Shown here piece by piece: positions 2,401 through 62,708 of a stretch of DNA of 64,000 nucleotides. The stretch is taken from positions 6,516,066-6,580,065 of the forward strand of contig NC_087386.1 in NCBI RefSeq assembly GCF_963675165.1, in the 5' to 3' direction. The translations under genes were made by a program, and so were the position numbers. Under the pieces are notes generated by a model. The model made no database searches and was not told the DNA's origin. It saw nothing but the letters and a program-made list of their open reading frames with translations. This DNA is from Halichondria panicea (lineage: Eukaryota > Porifera > Demospongiae > Suberitida > Halichondriidae). How positions within the stretch are numbered: the stretch's first letter is position 1; each line of letters begins with the position of its first letter.

Positions 2401-2996
2401 CTCTAGTTAATATGATCTAGCCTCAATCCCAGGTCACACTGAAGGTATCGATTGTTTGCGCATGCGCCACATAATCCCCAGAAACTGAGGACTTTGTTTG
2501 GATAACATCGTATTATGCTCAGTAAAACAACGAACGGAAGTGAATTGAAGGAAGTAGATAGAATTTCGATTGTGAAGGTTTCTTAGCACATTATTTTGAT
2601 ATCATTCTAGTAGCTACCTTTAGCCTGCTATGCTAACAAAGACTCACAGCCTGCAACAGTGTGAATGCATGATAATCGTCTGAATGGAGTGAAGGCTGAC
2701 ATGCACTAGCCTATATATGTGGACAGGACAGCCATTGATTTAATACTAACCTTGGTGAAAGTCTACATGTATAGATGCTGCAACAAATCTACAGCTCTGT
2801 CTCTAGCTAGCTAGCTATATAGCTCTGTGTATATGACTTTAAAGCGTTTATTTTAATATTTTTCTGGTAAAAATGTCAGTTCACTGATAGGAAACTTTAC
2901 GGGGAAAATATTCATGTGCAAGCAGTCAGTAGCAGGCCTCCTTTCTGAGGCCTTGTTAATTAAGGAGGCTAAATATGATCATGATTGAACTCACAG

Positions 2997-3416
2997 ATTT
3001 TCAGGCATCTCAGGAATACGACGTCTTCATTAGCTACAGCCATAAGGGTGACATTATGCGCACAGTGGACACTCTTATGTCGCGACTGAAACAAGAAGGC
3101 CTCAGCGTGTTTGTGGACCAACATAGCATTCAGCCTGGGGACAAATGGCGATTTGAGATTGCCTCCGCCATCAAAACCTGCAAAGCCTTTGTTTGTGTGC
3201 TCACTAAACGCTACATGAGGTCCGTGTACTGCAATGGAGAGCTGTATGAAACAGTAGCTCTTGGTAAACGACTGTTCCCAGTGGTGTGTGAGGATGGTTG
3301 GGGAGATGTGCCTGGAGGTGCTCCTGTGATGGAGGTAGTACAAGAGATTCAGTATGTCTCACTAGTAGCTGAGGACAGGGAGACGCAACTAGCAAGGCTG
3401 GTGCAAAGTATTAAAG
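2997..3416 (+). CDS. TIR-domain exon, intact
   Basis: The exon follows acceptor CTCACAG and ends before GTCAGT, entering and leaving in phase 1. It encodes a complete TIR domain: box 1 Y-D-V-F-I-S-Y-S, the BB-loop region V-D-Q-H-S-I-Q-P-G-D-K-W, V-C-V-L-T-K-R-Y, then Y-C-N-G-E-L-Y-E and L-F-P-V-V. The glutamate of N-G-E (codon 3239-3241) aligns with the catalytic Glu of SARM1 (W-V-H-K-E-I) and of plant TIRs (W-C-x-x-E-L), so NAD-cleaving activity is possible; that is inference. It joins in phase to the CARD-like exon upstream and the linker at 3470. Close paralogs lie at 52172, 57921 and 63105. Confidence 0.85.
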
Positions 3417-3469
3417 GTCAGTCAGTGCATTCTCACAGTGTTACTTATTATATTGAGCTCATTTTGCAG

Positions 3470-3538
3470 GAGCTGTGACACCTTTATCACCTGTTCCCGT
3501 AGCTCCAGGCTCGTCTGATCTACCCACTGACCAGGCTG
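3470..3538 (+). CDS. Pro-rich linker exon after TIR domain
   Basis: A 69-bp exon between TTTTGCAG and GTAAGATG, phase 1 on both sides. It encodes a Pro/Val/Ala linker (A-V-T-P-L-S-P-V-P-V-A-P-G then L-P-T-D-Q-A). The same exon follows each TIR copy, at 9310, 55986, 58348 and 63607, with conserved splice signals in most. It probably tethers TIR to downstream Death-fold exons. Confidence 0.65.
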
Positions 3539-9585: not shown

Positions 9586-9813
9586 CGCAACTTGCCGTCC
9601 TGACATTTTGGTGAGGAGAGAAATGGTGTATGGATTGATGACATGTTTCTAGAGGGTTCGGGGTATGCCCCCAGGAACTCTTTACTACCTGCTATTAAGA
9701 ATATTGTTCACCAGAACCACTCAATTGTATTCCCATCGAGTTTCTTCTAGAAGGTATTTCCGAGGGGGCAACTCCCACCTAATGTAACCCTGTTGATTGT
9801 TGCTTTTGTACAG

Positions 9814-10087
9814 GCTTTGACAATCAACGATCTGCAACATGTTTACGAGAAACTACACACTGCACATGAAAGTGCCAGCCCTCACTGGTTCAATCTGGGA
9901 TTGGCTCTAGGTCTGACTCATTTTATTCTCACCAATATCGATAGCAAGCATCATGGTGATAATGTGTCATCATTGCGTGAAATGTTGGCTGAGCTCCTGC
10001 GTACGAAAGATGTAACATGGAGTCTCCTGTCAGATGGTCTCAATAAGCCCACGGTGGAGCTCATCAATTTGGCTGATAGCGTCACAG
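9814..10087 (+). CDS. Death-domain exon 1 (locus 2)
   Basis: The exon lies between TTTTGTACAG and CACAG|GTAACC and is open for 91 codons, phase 0 in and phase 1 out. It encodes L-T-I-N-D-L-Q-H-V-Y-E-K-L, H-W-F-N-L-G-L-A-L-G-L, S-L-R-E-M-L-A-E-L-L and V-T-W-S-L-L-S-D-G-L. The W-x-x-L-G-x-x-L-G-L and V-T-W-x-x-L signatures are those of Death-fold domains. Its close paralog is 56509-56779. Confidence 0.75.
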
Positions 10088-10161
10088 GTAACCATTTTCA
10101 GTGTTTATGCATATGGTATATACGTACATTTAACGTCATTTTATCTTTTTTCTTTGCACAG

Positions 10162-10397
10162 TCACAACTCCTAACCTGCTCGATCGACTCAACCTCACCC
10201 CAGCCAACCTCGATGATGTAACTGATGTCACACGTCGTCTAGGCAATCAAGCTGGAGTGGCTCATGCGTTGAGAGTGTGGCAAAGAGTGAATCCCTCCAG
10301 AGCTACCTTCAGAGCCTTGGTGGAAATTGCCATAGGACTGAGAAGAGGAGACACTGCTACAGACATTTGTAGATTAATTGTAAAGGAACTAAACTGA
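10162..10397 (+). CDS. Death-domain exon 2 with stop (locus 2)
   Basis: Joined in phase 1 across a 74-bp intron (10088-10161), it encodes P-N-L-L-D-R-L-N-L-T, N-Q-A-G-V-A-H-A-L-R-V-W-Q-R-V-N-P-S, A-T-F-R-A-L-V-E-I-A and D-I-C-R-L-I-V-K, ending in TGA. The L-x-x-W-x-x-x-x-P-x-x-A-T-x-x-x-L core is typical of the second half of a Death domain. The frame is fully open although the TIR part upstream is broken. Confidence 0.75.
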
Positions 10398-10565
10398 GCT
10401 TAACAATTTTTATCTAATTAGTACGTGGGCGTAGGTGTTCCAGCACCCTTATCATATTAATTATGTAACATTGTTTTCTGTAATGTCAACACATTGTTGT
10501 GGTACTATATAATTATTGAGCATGCGCAGTAGGAACACAACAACGCCCACATAGTTTGGGAATTC

Positions 10566-10612
10566 AGGGGTGGGGCATATGCATGTCTAGGAGTTTTCCC
10601 AGCTGAGCTCAA
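10566..10612 (+). promoter_or_regulatory. Conserved upstream block (GGGGTGGGGCAT...CAGCTGAGCTCA)
   Basis: This block recurs at 57354-57399 and 59071-59110, each time a few hundred bases before the first coding exon of a new unit. It holds GGGGTGGGGCAT, a CTAGG-like step, GTTTTCCC and AGCTGAGCTCA. Position and recurrence suggest a shared promoter-proximal or 5' UTR element; there is no direct proof. Confidence 0.45.
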
Positions 10613-10760
10613 CAAGTGCTCCCTTGAGATCCCTGCTTTGGCTAGCTATGAAATACCAAGGTCAGCAAGGCGTTTTAATTTATTGTGCGTGAGTATCACT
10701 AGATCTACTGGTACCCCTCTAAATACAAAGCCATTTGTAGCTTTCGTTATCGAAAATAGA

Positions 10761-11082
10761 ATGGGGATCACAGTGGAGTTGTGGAGAGCTCGCATTGGGC
10801 AGTTCAGTGGTGGGAGGGGATCCCGACCACACAGTAAAGCTCCCTCGACAAAACAGCCTCTACACTTCAGTGATACAGTGGGTACTACTGCAAAAGTTGT
10901 TCAAGGAGGCTTGCTTTTATTGGTAATTCTCACATTTTTGAGCTCTCACGACAAATCACTTTTGCTAAAATGCACAAGAAATGCTGGTCTCCTAATAATT
11001 GCCATTGTTGGGTTGGTTCACTCTCTTGCCCATCTCTTGCTGCTAGCTGGAGACATTGAGAGCAATCCTGGCCCACAAATGG
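10761..11082 (+). CDS. Hydrophobic leader exon ending in a 2A-like (StopGo) motif
   Basis: The first in-frame ATG (10761, M-G-I-T-V-E-L-W) opens 107 codons; the frame is open further upstream, so an earlier exon cannot be excluded. There is a basic N-terminal region, a hydrophobic segment at residues 46-60, and a second at about 75-96. It runs directly into G-D-I-E-S-N-P-G-P at residues 97-105 (11049-11075). D-[VI]-E-x-N-P-G-P is the strict signature of 2A-like sequences, where the ribosome fails to form the Gly-Pro bond. The donor ATGG|GTAAGT follows two codons later in phase 1 and joins a Death-domain exon. Known precedents, from memory: cellular 2A-like sequences in invertebrate innate-immune genes and in some LINEs. 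No retrotransposon ORF is attached here. Confidence 0.75.
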
Positions 11083-11128
11083 GTAAGTATAATATTGTGA
11101 AGGTGGATGTTTCTAAATATTGTTACAG

Positions 11129-11408
11129 ATGAAGTTCTGACTCTCCATGAGCATCTAGAGGACGCTTGCAGCAAGCTATTCAAGGCTCGTACAGAATGGT
11201 TCAATATTGGGCTAACTCTCGGTGTCGATGACAATACTCTTACTGCTATCCGCCAGGAGCATTCTAGTAACCATGGTGACTGTCTCCGAGATATGTTGGC
11301 TCATCGTATCAAAGCAACGGATTCACTCACATGGGGAGATCTGTGCAAGAGTCTTAGACACGACACAGTAGGACACAGCGATGTGGCTGATGAAATCAAA
11401 GCAGGTAT
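11129..11408 (+). CDS. Death-domain exon following the 2A-like exon
   Basis: A 46-bp intron separates it from the 2A exon, and the phase-1 join is clean (G|AT gives Asp). It encodes D-E-V-L-T-L-H-E-H-L, E-W-F-N-I-G-L-T-L-G-V, D-C-L-R-D-M-L-A and L-T-W-G-D-L-C-K-S-L, a diverged sister of 9814-10087. The donor AAAGCAG|GTATAT is present, but repeat R2 begins about 20 bases later and no partner exon is visible before 18.9 kb. Confidence 0.75.
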
Positions 11409-18570: not shown

Positions 18571-19050
18571 ATCTATGTGCTGATAAGCTTCAACCACCAG
18601 CTAAAAGTTAGTATTTTCTAGTTGTAGACTATAATTATGTAGAATTCTCTGGCATACCGTATAGCAAGAAATTTTGGTGGGGTGTAAAATTTTGCGTTTT
18701 CGAGGGCGGAGCAGTGATGCGGACATTAAAACCAAGATAAACTCCCACGCACCCGTATTTTCACATGCAAAGCTATTGGTGGGTGTGGTTTCCTGGCATT
18801 GAACTGCGAATATTAGAACTGACGAAAATTTCTGCTGAGGGCTCTGGAGCCAAATAGCGAAAATTTTCCGCCATAGGGTACTTGTCAACCACATAAACCA
18901 TAAATGAAGCCATAATTTATCACATAACTTCCAGGGCCGAACTCAATGCTTAGTGTAGATAGTCATGTGATATTGTATAATGAGTAGGGAGTGGGTCTGC
19001 ATGTGATGAGTGATGGACCTGCTCACACTATATATCTTAACTCTGCACAG

Positions 19051-19152
19051 GATGGATTAACTGAGGAGTTGATGGCAGCTGCTCAAAATGGTCATGTGAA
19101 GGGAGTGGAGGTGTTAATTGCAGCAGGGGCTGAAGTGAACTTTCAAACTGAG
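19051..19152 (+). CDS. Ankyrin-repeat exon, A-type
   Basis: Between CTCTGCACAG and GAG|GTGAGA, phase 0, 34 codons. It reads D-G-L-T-E-E-L-M-A-A-A-Q-N-G-H-V-K-G-V-E-V-L-I-A-A-G-A, a recognisable ankyrin repeat, although the consensus T-A-L is changed to T-E-E-L. The intron before it contains the D-to-A intron sequence seen at 50400-50518. The next (B-type) exon is disrupted by a 10.6-kb insertion. Confidence 0.7.
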
Positions 19153-19198
19153 GTGAGATTTACTGCGATGGTTAGATGGCATTACACATGGCCAGTAT
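19153..19198 (+). pseudogene. Left piece of a B-type ankyrin exon, interrupted
   Basis: TTACACATGGCCAGTAT matches the B-exon core TTGCACATGGCCAGTCAGA at 50680. The sequence then breaks at the transposon start (19199) and resumes at 29822. The usual GTACAG acceptor before the exon is already lost. Confidence 0.65.
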
Positions 19199-19789
19199 TA
19201 GCCTCGATTCTAGGCCGAGTTTTCGCTTTTATAACGGTTAGGCAACAACTAGGCCTGCGCATGTAGGACCAGAAAGCCAGAAATCGGAAAAGGCGGAAGT
19301 GAAAGGTAAATGAGTGGGCGTAGCAGGGCAATGCATTCCAAGGTTAACCCTTGACTTTGCACAGAGATATGCTCTTGCCTGATCACTATACTAGTCTATG
19401 TAAGTAAGTAGAAAGCTGGCCAGCCTAGTTTTAAGTAGACTCTCCATTGTCTGCAGTATAGACTTAATATAATAGCTAGCTACTTGCACATGTCTGCAGT
19501 AGACTCTAGCTATAGCTACATGCACAATGACAATTAATTATGTCTGTACACTGAGCTAGATTTAGTATGAATTTAACATTACCATTTTTAATTCAGCCAG
19601 TCACCTAACTCCTACTTATACTCCCCAATTTATTGTTCAGAGGTTATTTGGCTCTATACTGAAACACGCCGAGCCACTTTTCTGACTTTTGAGAGCTATG
19701 ATTATAGAATGGGAACTGGAATAATTATGTTCAATCCTGGTCTATATACAAGCAATTAAGTATATCAGCCAATAAGTTATGTTGATATA

Positions 19790-49889: not shown

Positions 49890-50034
49890 GTGAGTCACGC
49901 TGCATGGTGGTGTTTGTGTACTCTGCTGATTCCATGGTTGAGTGTGTGTACTGTCACCTCTGTGTATGAGTGGACTGAGTAGTGGACAGTGTACAATTAG
50001 CTAGTCCAGTTGCATGGTTTATTGTCTATAACAG

Positions 50035-50133
50035 GACAACCGGACAGCACTGCATGCAGCCAGTGACCATGGACATGATGAGATAGTGAAGGTCCTCTTA
50101 GCAGCCAAGGCTACAGTTAACACTCAGTCCAAG
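50035..50133 (+). CDS. Ankyrin-repeat exon, C-type
   Basis: Between CTATAACAG and AAG|GTTAGT, 33 codons: D-N-R-T-A-L-H-A-A-S-D-H-G-H-D-E-I-V-K-V-L-L-A-A-K-A. Very close to the canonical ankyrin consensus. Confidence 0.85.
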
Positions 50134-50193
50134 GTTAGTTTTGTTGCACAAAATTTCCTATTTACATTTTTTTCCTCCTATAATTATGTACAG

Positions 50194-50292
50194 TCGGGAC
50201 AGACCTCTCTTTGGTCAGCCAGTTTCAGTGGTCACCAGAAATGTATGGAGCTCCTAATCGATGCTGGGGCCTATGTTGATGTACCCACTGAG
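50194..50292 (+). CDS. Ankyrin-repeat exon, D-type
   Basis: Between TATGTACAG and GAG|GTGAGT, 33 codons: S-G-Q-T-S-L-W-S-A-S-F-S-G-H-Q-K-C-M-E-L-L-I-D-A-G-A. Followed by the standard D-to-A intron. Confidence 0.85.
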
Positions 50293-50518
50293 GTGAGTGT
50301 AAGTAGCTGTACACACATCTCAGAGGCCTCTAGCCACAGAGCCTCCCCATGTTCTGTTGACCTGATCCATTAGACAACAAAGCTAGTCAAGTTTGTGTAG
50401 AGAGCACTGGTAGTTGGTGTATCCCCTGATTAGTGTAGATAGTCATGTGATATTGTATAATGAGTAGGTCTATGATGAGTGATGGTTCACCTGCTCACAC
50501 TATCTTGACTCTGTACAG

Positions 50519-50617
50519 GGTGGAACCACTGCGTTGTGGGTAGCTGCTCAGAATGGTCATGTGAGGGCAGTTGACATGTTGATTGCATCAAAAGCTCAAG
50601 TTGACATTCAACAAAAA
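50519..50617 (+). CDS. Ankyrin-repeat exon, A-type
   Basis: Between CTGTACAG and AAA|GTTAGA, 33 codons: G-G-T-T-A-L-W-V-A-A-Q-N-G-H-V-R-A-V-D-M-L-I-A. Opens the last module before the CARD-like exon. Confidence 0.85.
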
Positions 50618-50664
50618 GTTAGATTTACTGCTTGTCTGCTTAAAATTATTTGGTTATTGTACAG

Positions 50665-50763
50665 GATGGAGCCACTGCGTTGCACATGGCCAGTCAGAAT
50701 GGTCACTGTGAAGTTGTTAGAATGTTGTTGGAGGCCAAGGCTGACGTCAACTTTAGGACTAAT
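50665..50763 (+). CDS. Ankyrin-repeat exon, B-type
   Basis: Between TTGTACAG and AAT|GTGAGT, 33 codons: D-G-A-T-A-L-H-M-A-S-Q-N-G-H-C-E-V-V-R-M-L-L-E-A-K-A-D-V. This is the best intact reference for the exon destroyed at 19199. Confidence 0.85.
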
Positions 50764-51040
50764 GTGAGTGACGCTGCATGGTGGTGCTTGTGTACTCCGC
50801 TGATTCCATGGTTGAGTGTGTGTACTGTCACCTCTGTGTATATGAGTGGACTGAGTAGTGGAGAGTGTACAATTAGCTGGTACAGTTGCTGCTTGCATGT
50901 CATAGTGAGGGTTTATTTGCAATGTTTACTTTGACGATAATTATTAGTTTATCACATGCGATATACAGCAAACTAGCTATTAATTTTGTTTCTCACTTTA
51001 ATTTGCCACGGTATAATAATTGTTTGTGGTCTGTATACAG

Positions 51041-51136: not shown

Positions 51137-51486
51137 GTTGGTTTTGTTTTACAAACACATTTCCCACAACATGCTGTTTGCATTTTGATTTGATTATGCT
51201 CTCGCAAACTTCTTAAAGTGCATTCATCAAGCCCTCTTTTGAGCAAGCATGGAATTCAATTGCAAATGCTTATTATAATTTTAATACACTTTATGAAAAA
51301 CATGCGCTCAGTTTACAACATTCATTACCTGAGGCCATGCTACGAATACAGTTGTCATACATATACAACTGTATTCATGTAAACAACCGAGGGTTAGCAC
51401 TTCAGTGCTCTAGTTAGTTTTTAAGGTATCTTGCTGCACACATGCAGAGTCAACATTACACATGGCAATATCTCCCCTCATTGCAG

Positions 51487-52117
51487 ACGACTACTGTTAC
51501 CCCTGAATACAAAGCCAACCCCCCTGTTACCCATGAACACAAAGCCAACCCCCCTGTTACCGGTGAACACAAAGCCAACCCCCCTGTTACCGGTGAACAC
51601 GAAGCCAATCCCCCTGTTACCGGTGAACACAAAGCCAACCCCCCTGTTATCGGTGAACACAAAGCCAACCCCCCTATTACCGGTGAACACAAAGCCAACC
51701 CCCCTGTTACCGGTGAACACAAAGCCAACCCCCCTGTTATCGGTGAACACAAAGCCAACTCCCCTGTTACCCGTGAACACAAAGCCAATCCCTCTGCTAC
51801 CCCTGAATATGAAGCCATCCGTAGCTGCAGAGTGGATCTGACAGAGAGGCTCTCTCCGTACTTTAAAGATGTAGCTAAACACTTACGTCAGAGTGGAGCA
51901 CTGACTGACAAACAATGCCAGGAAATCATCAGTGCTGAGATGCTCCTAAACTATGTTCTTGTGGACATCAAAGACCCAGACACCACATTGGATGCTTTTG
52001 CAGGCTTTGTGACAGCAATGAAACAAAGTGGAAACACGTACTTCCAAACTTTTGTCAGGGACAAAATTGAAGCGAAACGAAGGGACTTCTATAGAGAATT
52101 GCTCCAAGTTCCACCAG
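51487..52117 (+). CDS. CARD-like death-fold exon with ten-residue repeat leader, intact
   Basis: Acceptor CATTGCAG, donor CCAG|GTATGT, 631 bp, phase 0 in and phase 1 out, fully open. Residues 1-107 or so carry about ten copies of P-V-T-G-E-H-K-A-N-P (30-bp DNA period). Then comes C-R-V-D-L-T-E-R-L, F-K-D-V-A-K-H-L-R, G-A-L-T-D-K-Q, A-F-A-G-F-V-T-A-M-K-Q-S-G-N-T-Y-F-Q-T-F and R-R-D-F-Y-R-E-L-L. The six-helix spacing and the G-A-L-T ... S-G-N-x-x-F pattern fit CARD best; DED is the alternative. It would mediate homotypic assembly. The join to the TIR exon is in phase. Confidence 0.85.
51503..51813 (+). repeat. 30-bp coding minisatellite
   Basis: About ten units of AAAGCCAACCCCCCTGTTAC plus CGGTGAACAC, differing at a few positions (CCGGT, TCGGT, CCATG, CCCGT). 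Because the unit is a multiple of three, other frames and the reverse strand are also open; those are by-products. Confidence 0.85.
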
Positions 52118-52171
52118 GTATGTAATGATGGTTAAATAGTGATGATATTAGGAATTTTCTCATGTTCACAG

Positions 52172-52608
52172 GTTTAAAGGCTCAGGAATTCGATGTCTTC
52201 ATCAGCTACAGCCATGAGGATGACACCAAACACACAGTGGACACTCTTTTGCGTCCTCAACTGGAGCTAAAAGGCCTCACTGTGTTTGTGGACAGAGATA
52301 ATCTTCGTCCTGGGGACAAATGGCGATCTGAGATTACCTCCGCCATCAAAACCTGCAAAGCCTTCGTTGTTGTGCTCACTAAACGCTACGTGAGGTCCTT
52401 GTACTGCAATGGAGAGTTTTACGAAGCAGAAGCTCTTGGCAAGCGTATGTTCCCAGTGGTGTGCGAGAAGGGATGGGAAAAGGTACCTGGAGGTGCTTCT
52501 GTGACGGAGATAGTGAAGGAGGTTCAGTATGTCTCTCTAGTGGCAGAGGACAGCGAGACACAGCTGACAGATTTGGTCCAAAGTATCAAAACGTCAGTCA
52601 GTGGATAA
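52172..52608 (+). CDS. TIR-domain terminal exon, intact, with stop
   Basis: Joined in phase 1 after a 54-bp intron (G|GT), it encodes F-D-V-F-I-S-Y-S, V-D-R-D-N-L-R-P-G-D-K-W, F-V-V-V-L-T-K-R-Y, Y-C-N-G-E-F-Y-E and M-F-P-V-V. The putative catalytic Glu codon is 52414-52416. In other copies the exon ends at AAAG|GTCAGT. Here it reads AAAACGTCAG, the donor is gone, and translation runs six codons to TAA. The product would be an ankyrin-CARD-TIR protein ending with TIR. Confidence 0.85.
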
Positions 52609-56249: not shown

Positions 56250-56508
56250 TATATGCAGTACTCTAAATCATAATATCAAACGTATCCTTATTATCCTGGC
56301 ATTTGTGCGAGGGGAGCAAAATTTAATGTTGTACGTGTAAAAAATTAAGGGGTGTGAGATGACATGTATCTAGCATTACTATAATTATACTGCCCTCTAT
56401 TAAGAATATTGTTCACCAGAACCACTCAATTGTATACCCATCGAGTTTATTCTAGAAGTTATTTCCGAGGGGACCAAATGAACCCTGTTGATTGTTGTAT
56501 TTGTACAG

Positions 56509-56779
56509 GTTTTGACAATTGACGATCTACAACATGTTTACGAGAAACTACACACTGCACAAAGTGCCAGCCCTCACTGGTTCAATCTGGGATTGGCTCT
56601 AGGTTTAACTAATCCTGTTCTCACCAACATCGATAGCAAGCATCGTGGCGATAATGTGTCGTCTTTACGTGCAATGTTGGCTGAGCTTCTGAATACGAAA
56701 GATGTAACATGGAGTCTCCTGACAGATAGTGTCAAAAAGTCCACAGTGGATCTCAAAAATTTGGCTGATAGCGTCACAG
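56509..56779 (+). CDS. Death-domain exon 1 (locus 5)
   Basis: Between TTTGTACAG and CACAG|GTAACC, 90 codons plus one base, open. V-L-T-I-D-D-L-Q-H-V-Y-E-K-L, H-W-F-N-L-G-L-A-L-G-L, M-L-A-E-L-L and V-T-W-S-L-L match 9814-10087 almost throughout, including the intron start. Confidence 0.75.
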
Positions 56780-56905
56780 GTAACCATTTTCAGTGTTCAT
56801 GCATTTGACCTTGTGTGTGTTTAATTATAAATGCTCTGATATAAACTATCATGAAAATGTACACGTCCGCTGTCATTTTAGTGATGCCTTTTCCTTTGCA
56901 TTCAG

Positions 56906-57138
56906 CCACAACTCCTAACCTGCTCAATCGACTCAACCTCACCCAAGCCGACCTCGGTGCCGGTGATGTAACTGATGCCACACATCGTTATGGCAATCAA
57001 GCTGGAGTGGCTCATGCATTGAGAGCGTGGCAAAGAGTGAATCCTTCCAGAGCTACCTTCAGGGCCTTGGTGGAAATTGCCATAGAACTGAGAATAGGCA
57101 CTGCTGTAGACATTTGTAGATTTATTATAAGTAACTGA
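56906..57138 (+). CDS. Death-domain exon 2 with stop (locus 5)
   Basis: Phase-1 join (G|CC). P-N-L-L-N-R-L-N-L-T-Q-A-D-L, V-A-H-A-L-R-A-W-Q-R-V-N-P-S-R-A-T-F-R-A-L-V-E-I-A, ending TGA after I-S-N. Downstream, 57155-57240 repeats the 3' part of this exon (GGACTGAGAAGAGGAGACAC), a partial duplication. Confidence 0.75.
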
Positions 57139-57353
57139 ACAAAGATTTATTTGCCATGGGACTGAGAAGAGGAGACACTGTTGTAGATATTATTTTGTAT
57201 GCTGTAGACATTTGTAGATCATTGTAAGGAACTGAACAAAGAAAATAATATTTAACATTTTGTTTTTTATTCTGAGTCTGTGATGTGTGCTTTTTTCAAC
57301 ACACATCTGATGTTAGGAGCAATGTTAGGGAATTACCCCTACATGATTGTATA

Positions 57354-57399
57354 CAGGGGTGGGGCATGTACATCTAGGGGTTTTCCCGGCTGAGCTCAA
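57354..57399 (+). promoter_or_regulatory. Conserved upstream block, second copy
   Basis: GGGGTGGGGCATGTACATCT, then GGGGTTTTCCCGGCTGAGCTCA. It lies 284 bp before the first coding ATG of this unit (57683). Confidence 0.45.
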
Positions 57400-57682
57400 A
57401 CAAACTTCACTTGAATTTCCTTCGTTTATCTCTGCTTCACTGCTCTGGCTCCGGCTCCTGCTTACCAAGGCCAATGCAAGGAGTATATTGTGCGTGATAT
57501 CAATAGCTAAGGTACGTTGAAAAATGCTGCATAATAATTATAGTACATGTACAGAGTGCCATAGATCCTCGGCCTCTACTATATATCTGTGGTAGTGCTA
57601 TACTGTACGTACTATACACAGAATAAATTCTTATAATTATAGATCTAGCAATATTAATCAAATCCCCATATTCCTGTAGACG

Positions 57683-57920
57683 ATGGAATCACTGGAATAT
57701 AAAGCCATCAGCAGCTGCAGAGAGGAGCTGGCTAGTCTACTCTCCACTTGTCTTGAAGAAGTGACTGGTCCGTTACGCCAGAGCGAAGCACTAACTGACA
57801 AACGATACAAGACTGTCATCGGACTCGAAGATGGCGCCGGTGCTGTTATGCTTATCAAGGATTTCTTGGTCTTCACCAAAACTTCCCCATTGCATTGTTA
57901 TGTTGAATTCATGACAGCAT
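57683..57920 (+). pseudogene. CARD-like exon fused by deletion to TIR
   Basis: After CCTGTAG|ACG the ATG opens M-E-S-L-E-Y-K-A-I-S-S-C-R-E-E-L, G-P-L-R-Q-S-E-A-L-T-D-K-R-Y-K, M-L-I-K-D-F-L-V-F-T-K-T and F-M-T-A. At about 57920 the sequence jumps directly into the middle of the TIR exon, in another frame. The end of CARD, the intron and TIR box 1 are all gone, so the first frame closes within six codons. Confidence 0.7.
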
Positions 57921-58264
57921 TCTTATGTCGCGGCTGAAACACGAAGGCCTCACTGTGTTTGTTGGCGAACGTAGCATTCGGCCTGGGGACAAATGGCCAT
58001 TTGAGATTTCTTCCGCCATCAAAATCTGCAAAGCATTTGTCGTTATGCTCACTAAGGAATACATGAAGTCCGTGTACTGCAATGGAGAGCTGTACGAAGC
58101 AGAAGCTCTTGGCAAGCGTTTGTTCCCAGTGGTGTGTGAGGATGGTTGGGGAGATGTGCCTGGAGGTGCTCCTGTGATTGAGGTGTTGAAGGTCTTTCAG
58201 GATGTGTCTCTAGTGAAAGGAAATAAGGAGAAGCAACTAACAAGACTGGTCCATAGTATCAAAG
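57921..58264 (+). pseudogene. TIR exon lacking box 1
   Basis: M-S-R-L-K-H-E-G-L-T-V-F-V, I-R-P-G-D-K-W, V-M-L-T-K-E-Y, Y-C-N-G-E-L-Y-E and L-F-P-V-V are intact, and the donor AAAG|GTCAGT works. Without the D-V-F-I-S-Y strand the fold cannot be complete. It could be translated only from an internal ATG (57925). Confidence 0.7.
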
Positions 58265-58347
58265 GTCAGTCAGTAATGAATCTCAGAAATTAGTGTGCCA
58301 CCATCTTAATCGAAGTATACTGTTACTAAGCGGTATTTCGTTTGCAG

Positions 58348-59819: not shown

Positions 59820-60680
59820 CTAGCTATAATTACGTGTGTAGCATCTGTTGCATGGGCACATTAAGTGGTAGGTACATGGGATGTCAGAGACAAAGTTTTG
59901 TTTGAAGTGCTCCCAGAAGTAATGGTGGAGTGTATTCTTTGTTGAAGTTAGTGGTGCGCTGATATCCATCAGCATAGTGGGCATCAAGTTCCATAACCTT
60001 GTGATACGATTGAGGTAGAAGTGTCTGCTTGCGCTGTAGTGATTGGCTTGTACAGTGAGTTTGTTGTTGCAACTGAAGCGGGTGCGACCAGTAACGAATT
60101 TGATGTGATCTCTTATGTTGAAGTTGTCCGAGGGTTCCTTTAGTGACTTTACTAGAAACATTATGTCCTGTATTTCAAACCAGTACATTAGAGGTAGTAG
60201 CTTCAAATCGGACAGCCTTGATCTGTATGAGCTTGAGTAATCATTGAGTATGAATTTGGTGGCTCTCCTCTGGATTCTTTCTAGTTTTTGAATGTCCTTG
60301 ATCAAATTTGGTCTCCAGACTTGGGAGCAGTAGGTGACCTGGGATCTAACTAGGGTTATATATAACGATTTTTTTGTGCTGGTTTCTGATTTCATTGAAA
60401 TCGTCCGTCGGATGAGGTTAAGAGCTCGGTAGGCCTTAGACGATATGAGGTTATAATGCAGTGACCAGGAGAGGTTGTTGGCTATGCACAAGCCTAGGTC
60501 TTTTTCTTTTGTAGCAAAGTTAAGGTGAGAATTGTGGATTGAGTAGAGTGTATTAGGGTTGTCTTCGTGCCAGCTAGGATGAGTTATGCGCAGCACATTA
60601 CATTTTCCTTCATTGAGTTGCATGTTCCAAGTAGTGCACCAGGATGACAACTGGTTGATGTCTGTTTGTAATTCCACAGT
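59820..60680 (-). pseudogene. LINE reverse transcriptase C-terminal part
   Basis: Continues in another frame after the deletion: L-Q-T-D-I-N-Q-L-S-S-W, W-N-M-Q-L-N-E-G-K-C, L-R-I-T, E-K-D-L-G-L-C-I, A-Y-R-A-L-N-L-I-R-R, V-T-Y-C-S-Q-V-W-R-P and L-E-R-I-Q-R-R-A-T-K. About 60 residues between G-P-L and L-Q-T-D, including F/Y-A-D-D, are absent, so the enzyme is inactive. Confidence 0.8.
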
Positions 60681-62476
60681 GGGCCTAGGATTGCTTCCTT
60701 GCGAACTCCTGACATAACTGGTAAGTAGTTGGATGGAGTATTAATAACACTTGTGAAGTGTATCCTGTCATGTAGGTACGATTTAAACCACAGCCAAAGA
60801 GGGCCTGTGATGCCTGTCTTCCAAAGCTTTAGCAACAGCTCATTGTGTGGGACCGTGTCGAAAGCTTTCTTAAAATCTAGGTAGATGACATCTGTAGGTT
60901 TTCGGTTTTCTATGTTGTCAAAAACTTGGGAAAAGAATAGGATTAATTGAGAAAGACATGATCGGTTTCTTAGGAACCCGAATTGTTGGCATGTTATCTT
61001 TGGTCTCACGAATGTAATAATTTTCTTGTAGATGATAGTTTCAAAGACTTTGGATATAATTGGGAGAAGAGAGATGTGCCGAAAGTTTTCTACAAGATGG
61101 GGGTCGCCCTTCTTTGGGATTGGGCAGATTTTGTGGACCTTCCAGTGGGGTGGGAAAGTATGTGAAGATAGGCTAGAATTGAAAATGTGTGTGACTGATC
61201 TTGTGAAAGCGGTAGCACAGCATTTGAGGGTTGACGCATTTATATTATCGTGGCCTGGTGACTTTGTTGTGTCTAGTGAGGTGAGGGTTTCGTACACCTC
61301 AGACTCTTCTATAGAGATAGAGCTCAGTTGATAAGTGGGGGAGGGCATTTTGTCCCATGGAGGAAGTGTATAGTCACTTCTTGTGAATGTCGAGTTAAAG
61401 TATTTGTTGAAAATTTCAGCAATCTGTCCAGTCTCTGTGATGATGGAGCCGTTGTGGATTATTGTTCTAGTTTGTGGACTTTTCTTACTTAGGTCGCGCA
61501 GATGACGGAATAGTTTACTTGGGTTGAACTTAAAGCATACTGCCAACGATTTTTCGTACTCAGATTTGGCAGTTGTCATTAGTTCCTGGAGATGATTAGA
61601 CAAGTTAGATAGCCTTAGGGATGTACTCTCAGTGGGTTTGGATTTGTTTCTGCGTGTAAGCGTTTTGCAGCGATTGATAGTATGTCTCATTTCTGTGGTA
61701 TACCATTTTGGGCTTTTTGACTTCTGAGAGTTAAATTTGGGCACAAATATTTCCTGTGCTCTTGAGATGATTTTTTCTAGATGGACTGAACAGGCAGGCT
61801 TGGGTTGGCAGATAAAAAACTCAGACATGGAATTAAAATTTGCTTTTTTAAAGTTGTAGTTGCTGGCCGGTTTGTCTTTAGAGAGTAGTTTTGGTGTTTT
61901 TAAGCCATCTAGTGAGAACGTGATAAGGAAGTGATCAGACATAGGTGAACAATTAGACGAGTCAATATGCAGGTTGAGTATCCTGTCTGGTGAATTCGTG
62001 CATACTACGTCCAGTATGTTTCCTTTTGTGTGTGTTGGAGATGCAATCAGTTGGAGAAAGTTCTGAGCGAAAAGTGAGTTACAAATAGAAACCGAGAGTG
62101 GAGTTTTTCCAGACAAAGATGACCAATCTACATCTGGGCAGTTTAGGTCGCCCACCAAGATGGTGTTGTGGTTTGGAAGAGACGATATGGCGTTTGCCAC
62201 TTCTAAAGAAAAATGTGCTGGTGGTATGTAGATACATGCCAGGGTTGTTTTGGGAGAAACAAGCAGTTCAATTACAATTAGTTCCAGAGATTCGTGCCTG
62301 CAGATTAGTTGAGAGGGTATATCTTCGGATATCAGAATGGCTACACCACCTCCTCTCGCACTTCTGTCTCTGCGGTAAATTTTGTAGCCAACTGGAGAAA
62401 TTTCATTATCATATATCAAATCAGTGAGCCAAGACTCAGTTATACATATCACATCCAGAGATAGGCTCGCTATCAT
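60681..62476 (-). pseudogene. LINE endonuclease plus 5' reverse transcriptase part
   Basis: The minus frame gives an APE-type endonuclease starting late (D-V-I-C-I-T-E-S-W-L), G-G-G-V-A-I-L-I, L-V-G-D-L-N-C-P-D-V-D-W and S-D-H-F-L-I. The reverse transcriptase follows: S-P-G-H-D-N-I, F-R-H-I-S-L-L-P, F-G-F-L-R-N-R-S-C, Y-L-D-F-K-K-A-F-D-T-V. The usual S-G-V-P-Q-G-S-I-L-G-P is S-G-V-R-K-E-A-I-L-G-P. The first endonuclease strand is missing and the frame ends at an internal deletion near 60680, before the catalytic A-D-D box. Confidence 0.8.
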
Positions 62477-62708
62477 TGATAGACTATGCTTCTTTTCTAG
62501 TAGCCTAGATATCCAGCAGGAGCTGTTTCTGCATTCTCCAGAGAAATACAGTGTCCCAGCTCGCCTTGTCAGCTAAATTGAGCTGTAAGGTTTCCCACTT
62601 GAACGCAGCAATCTGATTGGGCTGCAAATTTCTTGCAGTGGGAACAAAACTGCTACATGTACTGATACCCAACCATGAGCAAAGCGTTGGTTGGACTCCG
62701 CCCAACTA

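Follow-up and report, generated by a model that had tools for sequence, protein, structure and literature searches.

The closest described counterparts of the locus treated here are the Death-NACHT-LRR proteins of sea urchins (SpNLR2A), in which an N-terminal 2A unites a signal sequence with StopGo activity and so provides for dual targeting (Roulston et al., 2016, PMC4981915). According to the accessible parts of that paper, 85 of 241 NLRs were concerned, 14 N-terminal cases of 26 residues were analysed, and a comparable sea-urchin sequence attained about 80% skipping in vitro, an inactive mutant being led into the secretory pathway (PMC4981915). For the sea urchin, the principle that a 2A leader provides Death-domain immune proteins with dual targeting is already on record. 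A second point of reference is the functional StopGo motif, given as (D/G/C/N)(V/I)ExNPGP in the accessible portion of PMC12846837, where the viral motifs 2 and 6 are characterized by an L-rich upstream sequence, (A/S/C)G, D at p12 and S at p15, and where activity in vitro is reported for an example of motif 6. As regards sponges, transmembrane NLRs are mentioned in a paper on sponge NLRs, in whose available text the term ‘2A-like’ is absent (PMC12909245). A search of the open literature by title and beginning of the abstract, with the 2A survey of Rao et al. (2025) outside its scope, returned no report of 2A leaders on immune or Death genes of sponges.

In the present study a window, i.e., the whole analysed stretch of 64,000 nucleotides from the sponge Halichondria panicea (contig NC_087386.1, positions 6,516,066 to 6,580,065), was considered together with the remainder of the genome. 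Our main reading, to which we assign a probability of roughly two in three, is that the leader exon of a host gene with a Death domain ends in a 2A/StopGo element of the functional class and that skipping at this element gives two products. The locus resembles SpNLR2A in a 2A core directly upstream of a Death protein, in a hydrophobic leader with predicted dual targeting, and in the position of this leader at the N terminus, ahead of the Death domain, to which it would be spliced in the sponge. SpNLR2A is an echinoderm protein with an N-terminal 2A of 26 residues, whereas the core of the sponge gene is preceded by 97 residues, in which a WRARIG box and two hydrophobic stretches occur. With the viral motifs 2 and 6, as far as set out in the accessible portion of PMC12846837, the locus shares (D)(V/I)ExNPGP, an LLLLSG-like hexapeptide with (A/S/C)G, D at p12 and S at p15; viral StopGo stands between polyprotein domains, whereas the sponge core belongs to a host gene, in which it closes a leader exon and adjoins a splice donor.

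The leader exon and its 2A core

The peptide GDIESNPGP is encoded on the plus strand at window positions 11049-11075, as read from the DNA and from the frame translation, just as a first-pass annotation of the sequence had reported, and its core is a genuine member of the 2A class in an open frame. This frame extends from 10533 to 11129 on the plus strand and has its first methionine at 10761, where positions -3 and +4 are A and G, respectively. Counted from this proposed start codon, exon 1 would occupy 10761-11082 and consist of a leader of 97 residues, the core, the residues QM and the initial base of the codon that follows, a delimitation that draws on the open frame, the first methionine, the paralogues and dN/dS. 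The core proper, DIESNPGP (11052-11075), identified by frame translation and by a genome-wide count with control, conforms to the pattern (D/G/C/N)(V/I)ExNPGP in an open frame, and the break is predicted between G (11070-11072) and P (11073-11075). Immediately 5' of it stands the hexapeptide LLLLAG (11034-11051), of the L-rich (A/S/C)G type by the classification in the available part of PMC12846837, so that hexapeptide, D at p12 and S at p15 together give an upstream context that fits StopGo motifs 2 and 6.

The N-terminal part of the leader is basic and contains WRARIGQF; the WRARIGQ box (10782-10802), found by pattern search, is common to three leader families. Hydropathy after Kyte-Doolittle reveals a moderate hydrophobic stretch at residues 42-60 (10884-10940; 1.80) and a stronger one at residues 77-95 (10989-11045; 2.54), which runs into the core, and hence the hydrophobic leader described at first sight is present and comprises two such stretches.

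The Death-domain exon and gene anatomy

Behind the last proline codon follow CAA ATG G and then the donor GTAAGT, i.e., 7 nt 3' of the core, and a donor at this same position was found in all 19 copies of the leader family F1, to which the window leader belongs. The predicted phase-1 intron of 46 nt (11083-11128, plus strand; GTAAGT...TTACAG, read from the DNA) terminates in TTGTTACAG. Splicing would yield the joined frame ...NPGP-QM-D-EVLTLHEHL..., in which phase 1 is kept; the first-pass annotation had pointed to a canonical donor two codons past the core and in phase with a Death exon, and the match of phases was confirmed, which is consistent with in-phase splicing of the leader exon to the Death exon. 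The latter is predicted at 11129-11404 on the plus strand with phase 1 at both ends, its domain core lying at 11134-11397 and its downstream donor, GTATAT, being weak; paralogues of this exon are 72-90% identical and stand 3' of the same leader.

Taken alone, the window sequence can be assigned to Death only weakly; for the family, judged from its profile, the assignment is firm. Against Pfam Death (PF00531) the window exon alone scored 15.6 bits (E 0.017) and the trimmed exon 14.3 bits (E 0.047), both below the curated cut-off of 22.6, as distinct from Death domains of the PIDD/FADD type, while 7 of 22 family members matched at E 0.1 or better (best 4.6e-4). A profile of the 22 exons matched in the PDB the Death domain of PIDD (2of5_H) with E 1.8e-4, FADD with about 3e-3 and CRADD with 0.055. 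An AlphaFold model of the window domain, built from three window sequences, has six helices and is of low confidence (pLDDT 56.3, pTM 0.35); in a Foldseek search of the PDB with this model the 12 best matches were all death folds, although the best E was 0.33 and none reached 0.001. PIDD Death (2of5_H) hence came first in both the profile and the fold search.

Further exons of the same gene may lie at 18988-19263, where an ankyrin-type exon reached E 5.3e-4, just under the cut-off of Pfam Ank, and at 50032-50931, where candidate ankyrin-type exons gave E 8.4e-14 and 9.3e-10 (all plus strand). In the two F1 copies checked by Pfam, ankyrin repeats likewise occur downstream, namely in L116 below L016 (Ank_2, E 1.3e-28) and in L117 below L015 (7.4e-44), and a second Death-like exon is present at the copies L016 and L004.

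Beside this gene the window holds TIR genes with CARD-like and Death-like exons at 2960-3475 (TIR_2, E 4.9e-23 in Pfam), 9751-10218, 51418-52605 and 56482-58290, among which the Death HMM matched at 9751 and 56482; a 2A core is absent from these neighbouring TIR genes in the window.

2A cores in the genome

The exact pattern D[V/I]ExNPGP was searched in 131 Mb on 39 contigs and occurs at 116 sites (91 with V, 25 with I), as against none for the reversed pattern that served as control; the window core is therefore not a product of chance. Directly before the core, 112 of the 116 sites have [ASC]G. That the motif nevertheless arose by chance in an unexpressed or decayed gene copy could be argued from the continuity of the gene past 11404, which is unproved, and from transposon-derived sequence downstream, but the count against the control, the conservation of the leader and the conserved splice position make this very improbable, and the claim at the level of the family would survive even a silent window copy.

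The surroundings of all 116 sites were read, and Pfam was run on representatives. An HMM from the window Death exon, applied to 850 nt at 21 sites and to about 700 nt at 95 sites, detected a Death-like segment 3' of the core, no more than about 850 nt away, at 72 of 116 sites; since these very loci had served to train the HMM, its E-values overstate independence. At least nine further core sites have a Death match 0.68-1.9 kb downstream, according to 19 Death matches picked by eye from those listed. Consequently, a Death exon follows within 2 kb at no fewer than 81 of the 116 core sites, and the search for D-x-E-x-N-P-G-P upstream of Death folds that had been proposed as a check has thus been carried out in this sponge genome with a positive result.

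The reverse direction was followed for 84 of 150 listed Death-exon matches, themselves drawn from the best-scored candidates. A strict core stands at most 700 nt upstream in 43 of the 49 exons that are at least 65% identical to one Death exon of C14, and in 12 of 35 exons with 43-58% identity to it. Six of the 49 are exceptions: one has its strict core 1.9 kb upstream, three others (L129-L131) showed none in the sequence inspected, and two Death genes on C14 (L127, L128) bear NVEANPGP in place of DVEANPGP. This natural variant at p12 falls inside the functional motif (D/G/C/N)(V/I)ExNPGP as given in the accessible part of PMC12846837.

Not all sites conform to the simple arrangement. Nine sites of family F6 (L040, L046, L047, L052, L053 and L106-L109; leaders of C6, C10 and C12) are followed by a split Death-like sequence, which Pfam Death matched in two of three hand-joined copies (best E 2.4e-4) and for which a profile search of the PDB gave nothing relevant. 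At 13 sites with leaders of the C2 array and C1 (L022, L023, L025-L035) a helical, CARD-like domain comes after the core, and four of these 13 are also among the at least nine sites with a Death match further on. The identity of this domain as CARD is unconfirmed: the PDB yielded no death-fold match, the best E being 0.071 to a leucine-rich-repeat protein, and Pfam CARD appeared in one of five sequences with only E 0.16.

About six of the 116 cores are LINE-like. 2A sequences are reportedly found in APE-type non-LTR retrotransposons, a description said to go back to Odon and colleagues in 2013, and the same core occurs in such a setting in this genome too, at L043, where PHD and endonuclease exceeded the Pfam cut-off, and at L104, where PHD did; L100, L101, L103 and L111 resemble these two by eye. 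The window leader might on these grounds be taken for the remnant of a non-LTR retrotransposon captured beside a Death exon. Retrotransposon 2A sites, however, precede PHD and endonuclease sequence, whereas the window site precedes a Death exon; the window leader contains no reverse transcriptase, endonuclease or PHD sequence, and its relatives are Death genes. A leader within a LINE ORF, which had been named as evidence against a host gene, was looked for, and no LINE was found at the locus. Since leader and downstream exon are devoid of LINE domains and the relatives are Death genes, a LINE origin of the window site was rejected and appears to us scarcely credible. A viral origin of the leader was likewise dismissed after one scan of viral contigs, in which none of 17 stretches with the pattern proved by tblastn to be a relative of the leader, a result that speaks against a LINE remnant as well.

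Leader families

By its leader sequence the window copy belongs to F1, with 19 copies mostly on C5 and C10, and the gene at the site is a member of a tandemly expanded sponge Death family. The WRARIG box unites F1 with F2 (C13, C15) and F3 (C3, C4, C11, C12). The C14 array, with a different leader and 45 copies by the rule used, is the largest group; it forms a very large array of Death genes with 2A leaders at about 0.5-1.63 Mb of C14 (L056-L093, L112-L114), several of them with NACHT downstream. Some of its leaders have in-frame upstream sequence that resembles the first exon of a GTPase (TPGNALAV...LIDTPGIL); in the one example scanned, L055 on C13, Pfam returned no family for such sequence.

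For NACHT the best 102 of 265 candidates were scored, and 31 of these 102, picked by eye for contigs with core sites, were used. NACHT was found within 8 kb downstream of at least 13 core sites, from which it follows that the sponge, as sea urchins do, has Death-NACHT genes with a 2A leader. None of these sites is of F1: of the best 102 of 265 candidates, none is a NACHT situated 8 kb or less from any of the 19 F1 sites. SpNLR2A is a Death-NACHT-LRR protein, whereas for the window family ankyrin was found in two paralogues (L116, L117) and no NACHT among those best 102 candidates.

After the core, the F1 copies read QM in ten and RM in nine of 19 cases, so that a methionine stands two residues past the core in every copy and might serve as a start. 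It is conceivable, therefore, that two products come about by alternative starts, alternative promoters or skipping of the leader exon, with 2A in a minor role, and the leader does form a separate exon. Against this stand the good context of the proposed leader start and the C14-type copies, which have TL or TF after the core and no methionine there, and we hold such an origin of the two products to be improbable.

Conservation and selection

When the F1 leader without its core was used as query, 29 matches were obtained, 18 of them full-length over residues 1-97, and an intact core follows all 18. The WRARIG pattern has 33 matches in the genome and none in the reversed control; a strict core comes within 700 nt after it in 28 of 33, and the five leaders without a core (L122-L126) all have stops or frame changes. 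L014 and L018 keep the core in spite of interrupted leader frames, and these two were dropped from the dN/dS analysis, which hence comprised 17 of 19 F1 leaders.

For these 17 copies the leader without core has a dN/dS of 0.37 (bootstrap 0.24-0.57), and the core, with 0.14, shows the lowest value among the parts of the leader. Eight F1 Death exons gave 0.53 (0.33-0.81), and constraint on the leader is thus no weaker than on the exon it precedes. For the C14 type the last 45 residues of 45 leaders gave 0.47, with an interval of 0.27-0.998 that reaches almost to unity. Leader and core recur in this genome and are under selection. Copies may share the core by recent duplication or gene conversion rather than by selection, and conversion between tandem copies could inflate their agreement; yet the same core is found in several different leader families.

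These data also bear on the view that the leader serves the Death protein simply as a membrane anchor or signal-anchor of the ordinary kind, with a tolerated or weakly active 2A-like tail and the fused protein as main product. Two hydrophobic stretches would suit such an anchor, as would the membrane-bound NLRs that have been proposed in sponges, judging from the available text of PMC12909245. Anchoring, however, has no need of D[V/I]ExNPGP, yet every full-length copy keeps it, the core is the part of the leader with the lowest dN/dS, and it is retained by leader families with different N termini as well. We consider a mere anchor unlikely.

Translation, targeting and significance

Returning to skipping at the core as the preferred reading, the ribosome would release a hydrophobic leader of 104 residues with Gly at its end, after which a free Death protein starting with Pro (P-Q-M-D-E-V...) would be made. 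Where skipping fails, the leader would stay on and the Death protein would be carried to the membrane; as a third outcome, the ribosome may stop. From general knowledge of tunnel length, the exit tunnel should still enclose the stretch 77-95 when the ribosome skips. As this would place the decision to skip before the recruitment of targeting factors, the 2A would act as a switch ahead of localisation. By way of speculation, the hydrophobic stretch at its C-terminal end might let the freed leader behave as a tail-anchored peptide.

Relative to the sea urchin, new aspects are the phylum, the long WRARIG leader, the ankyrin-bearing family (no NACHT among the best 102 of 265 candidates) and the presence of several leader families. 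A wider and clearly more tentative proposal, which we think possible although doubtful, is that StopGo is a general, selected control of sponge death-fold receptors: more than 80 genes in several leader families (Death-ankyrin, Death-NACHT, CARD-like) would each produce from one mRNA a membrane-type leader and a free, Pro-initiated death-fold protein, and the skip ratio would set the membrane-tethered share. If this were so, 2A control of Death signalling would, given that sea urchins are alike, either date back to an animal ancestor or have evolved more than once, and some of the ‘membrane NLRs’ described from sponges would represent 2A leaders that had not been cleaved.

This one sponge genome contains 116 exact cores, no fewer than 81 of which precede a Death exon by 2 kb or less, and this suggests that cellular use of 2A can be common in one class of genes. 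Where gene models treat such leaders as the transmembrane domain of an immune receptor, a fresh reading may be called for. The paralogues provide a set in which it can be asked whether cells tune skipping, whether the released leader performs a separate task, and whether a partition of Death receptors between membrane and cytosol takes place during translation.

Additional observations

Open frames at 59823-62572 on the minus strand of the window are, by eye, similar to LINE endonuclease and reverse transcriptase, and they are without a 2A core. At three core sites, L097 and L098 (C16, about 2.73-2.74 Mb) and L042 (C6, 3.06 Mb), the core is embedded in a long open frame, where several hydrophobic stretches precede it and polar sequence follows, and no Pfam family exceeded the cut-off. 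At L020 (C17, 4085157) the core is followed by a weak bZIP-like match (E 1.7e-4, below the cut-off), possibly a case of a 2A leader on a transcription factor. In keeping with a demosponge host, an active-site pattern of the SYAF type has four matches in the genome and none in the control, and the silicatein-like fragment L121 has its best match in the PDB in silicatein alpha (6zq3, E 1.4e-11).
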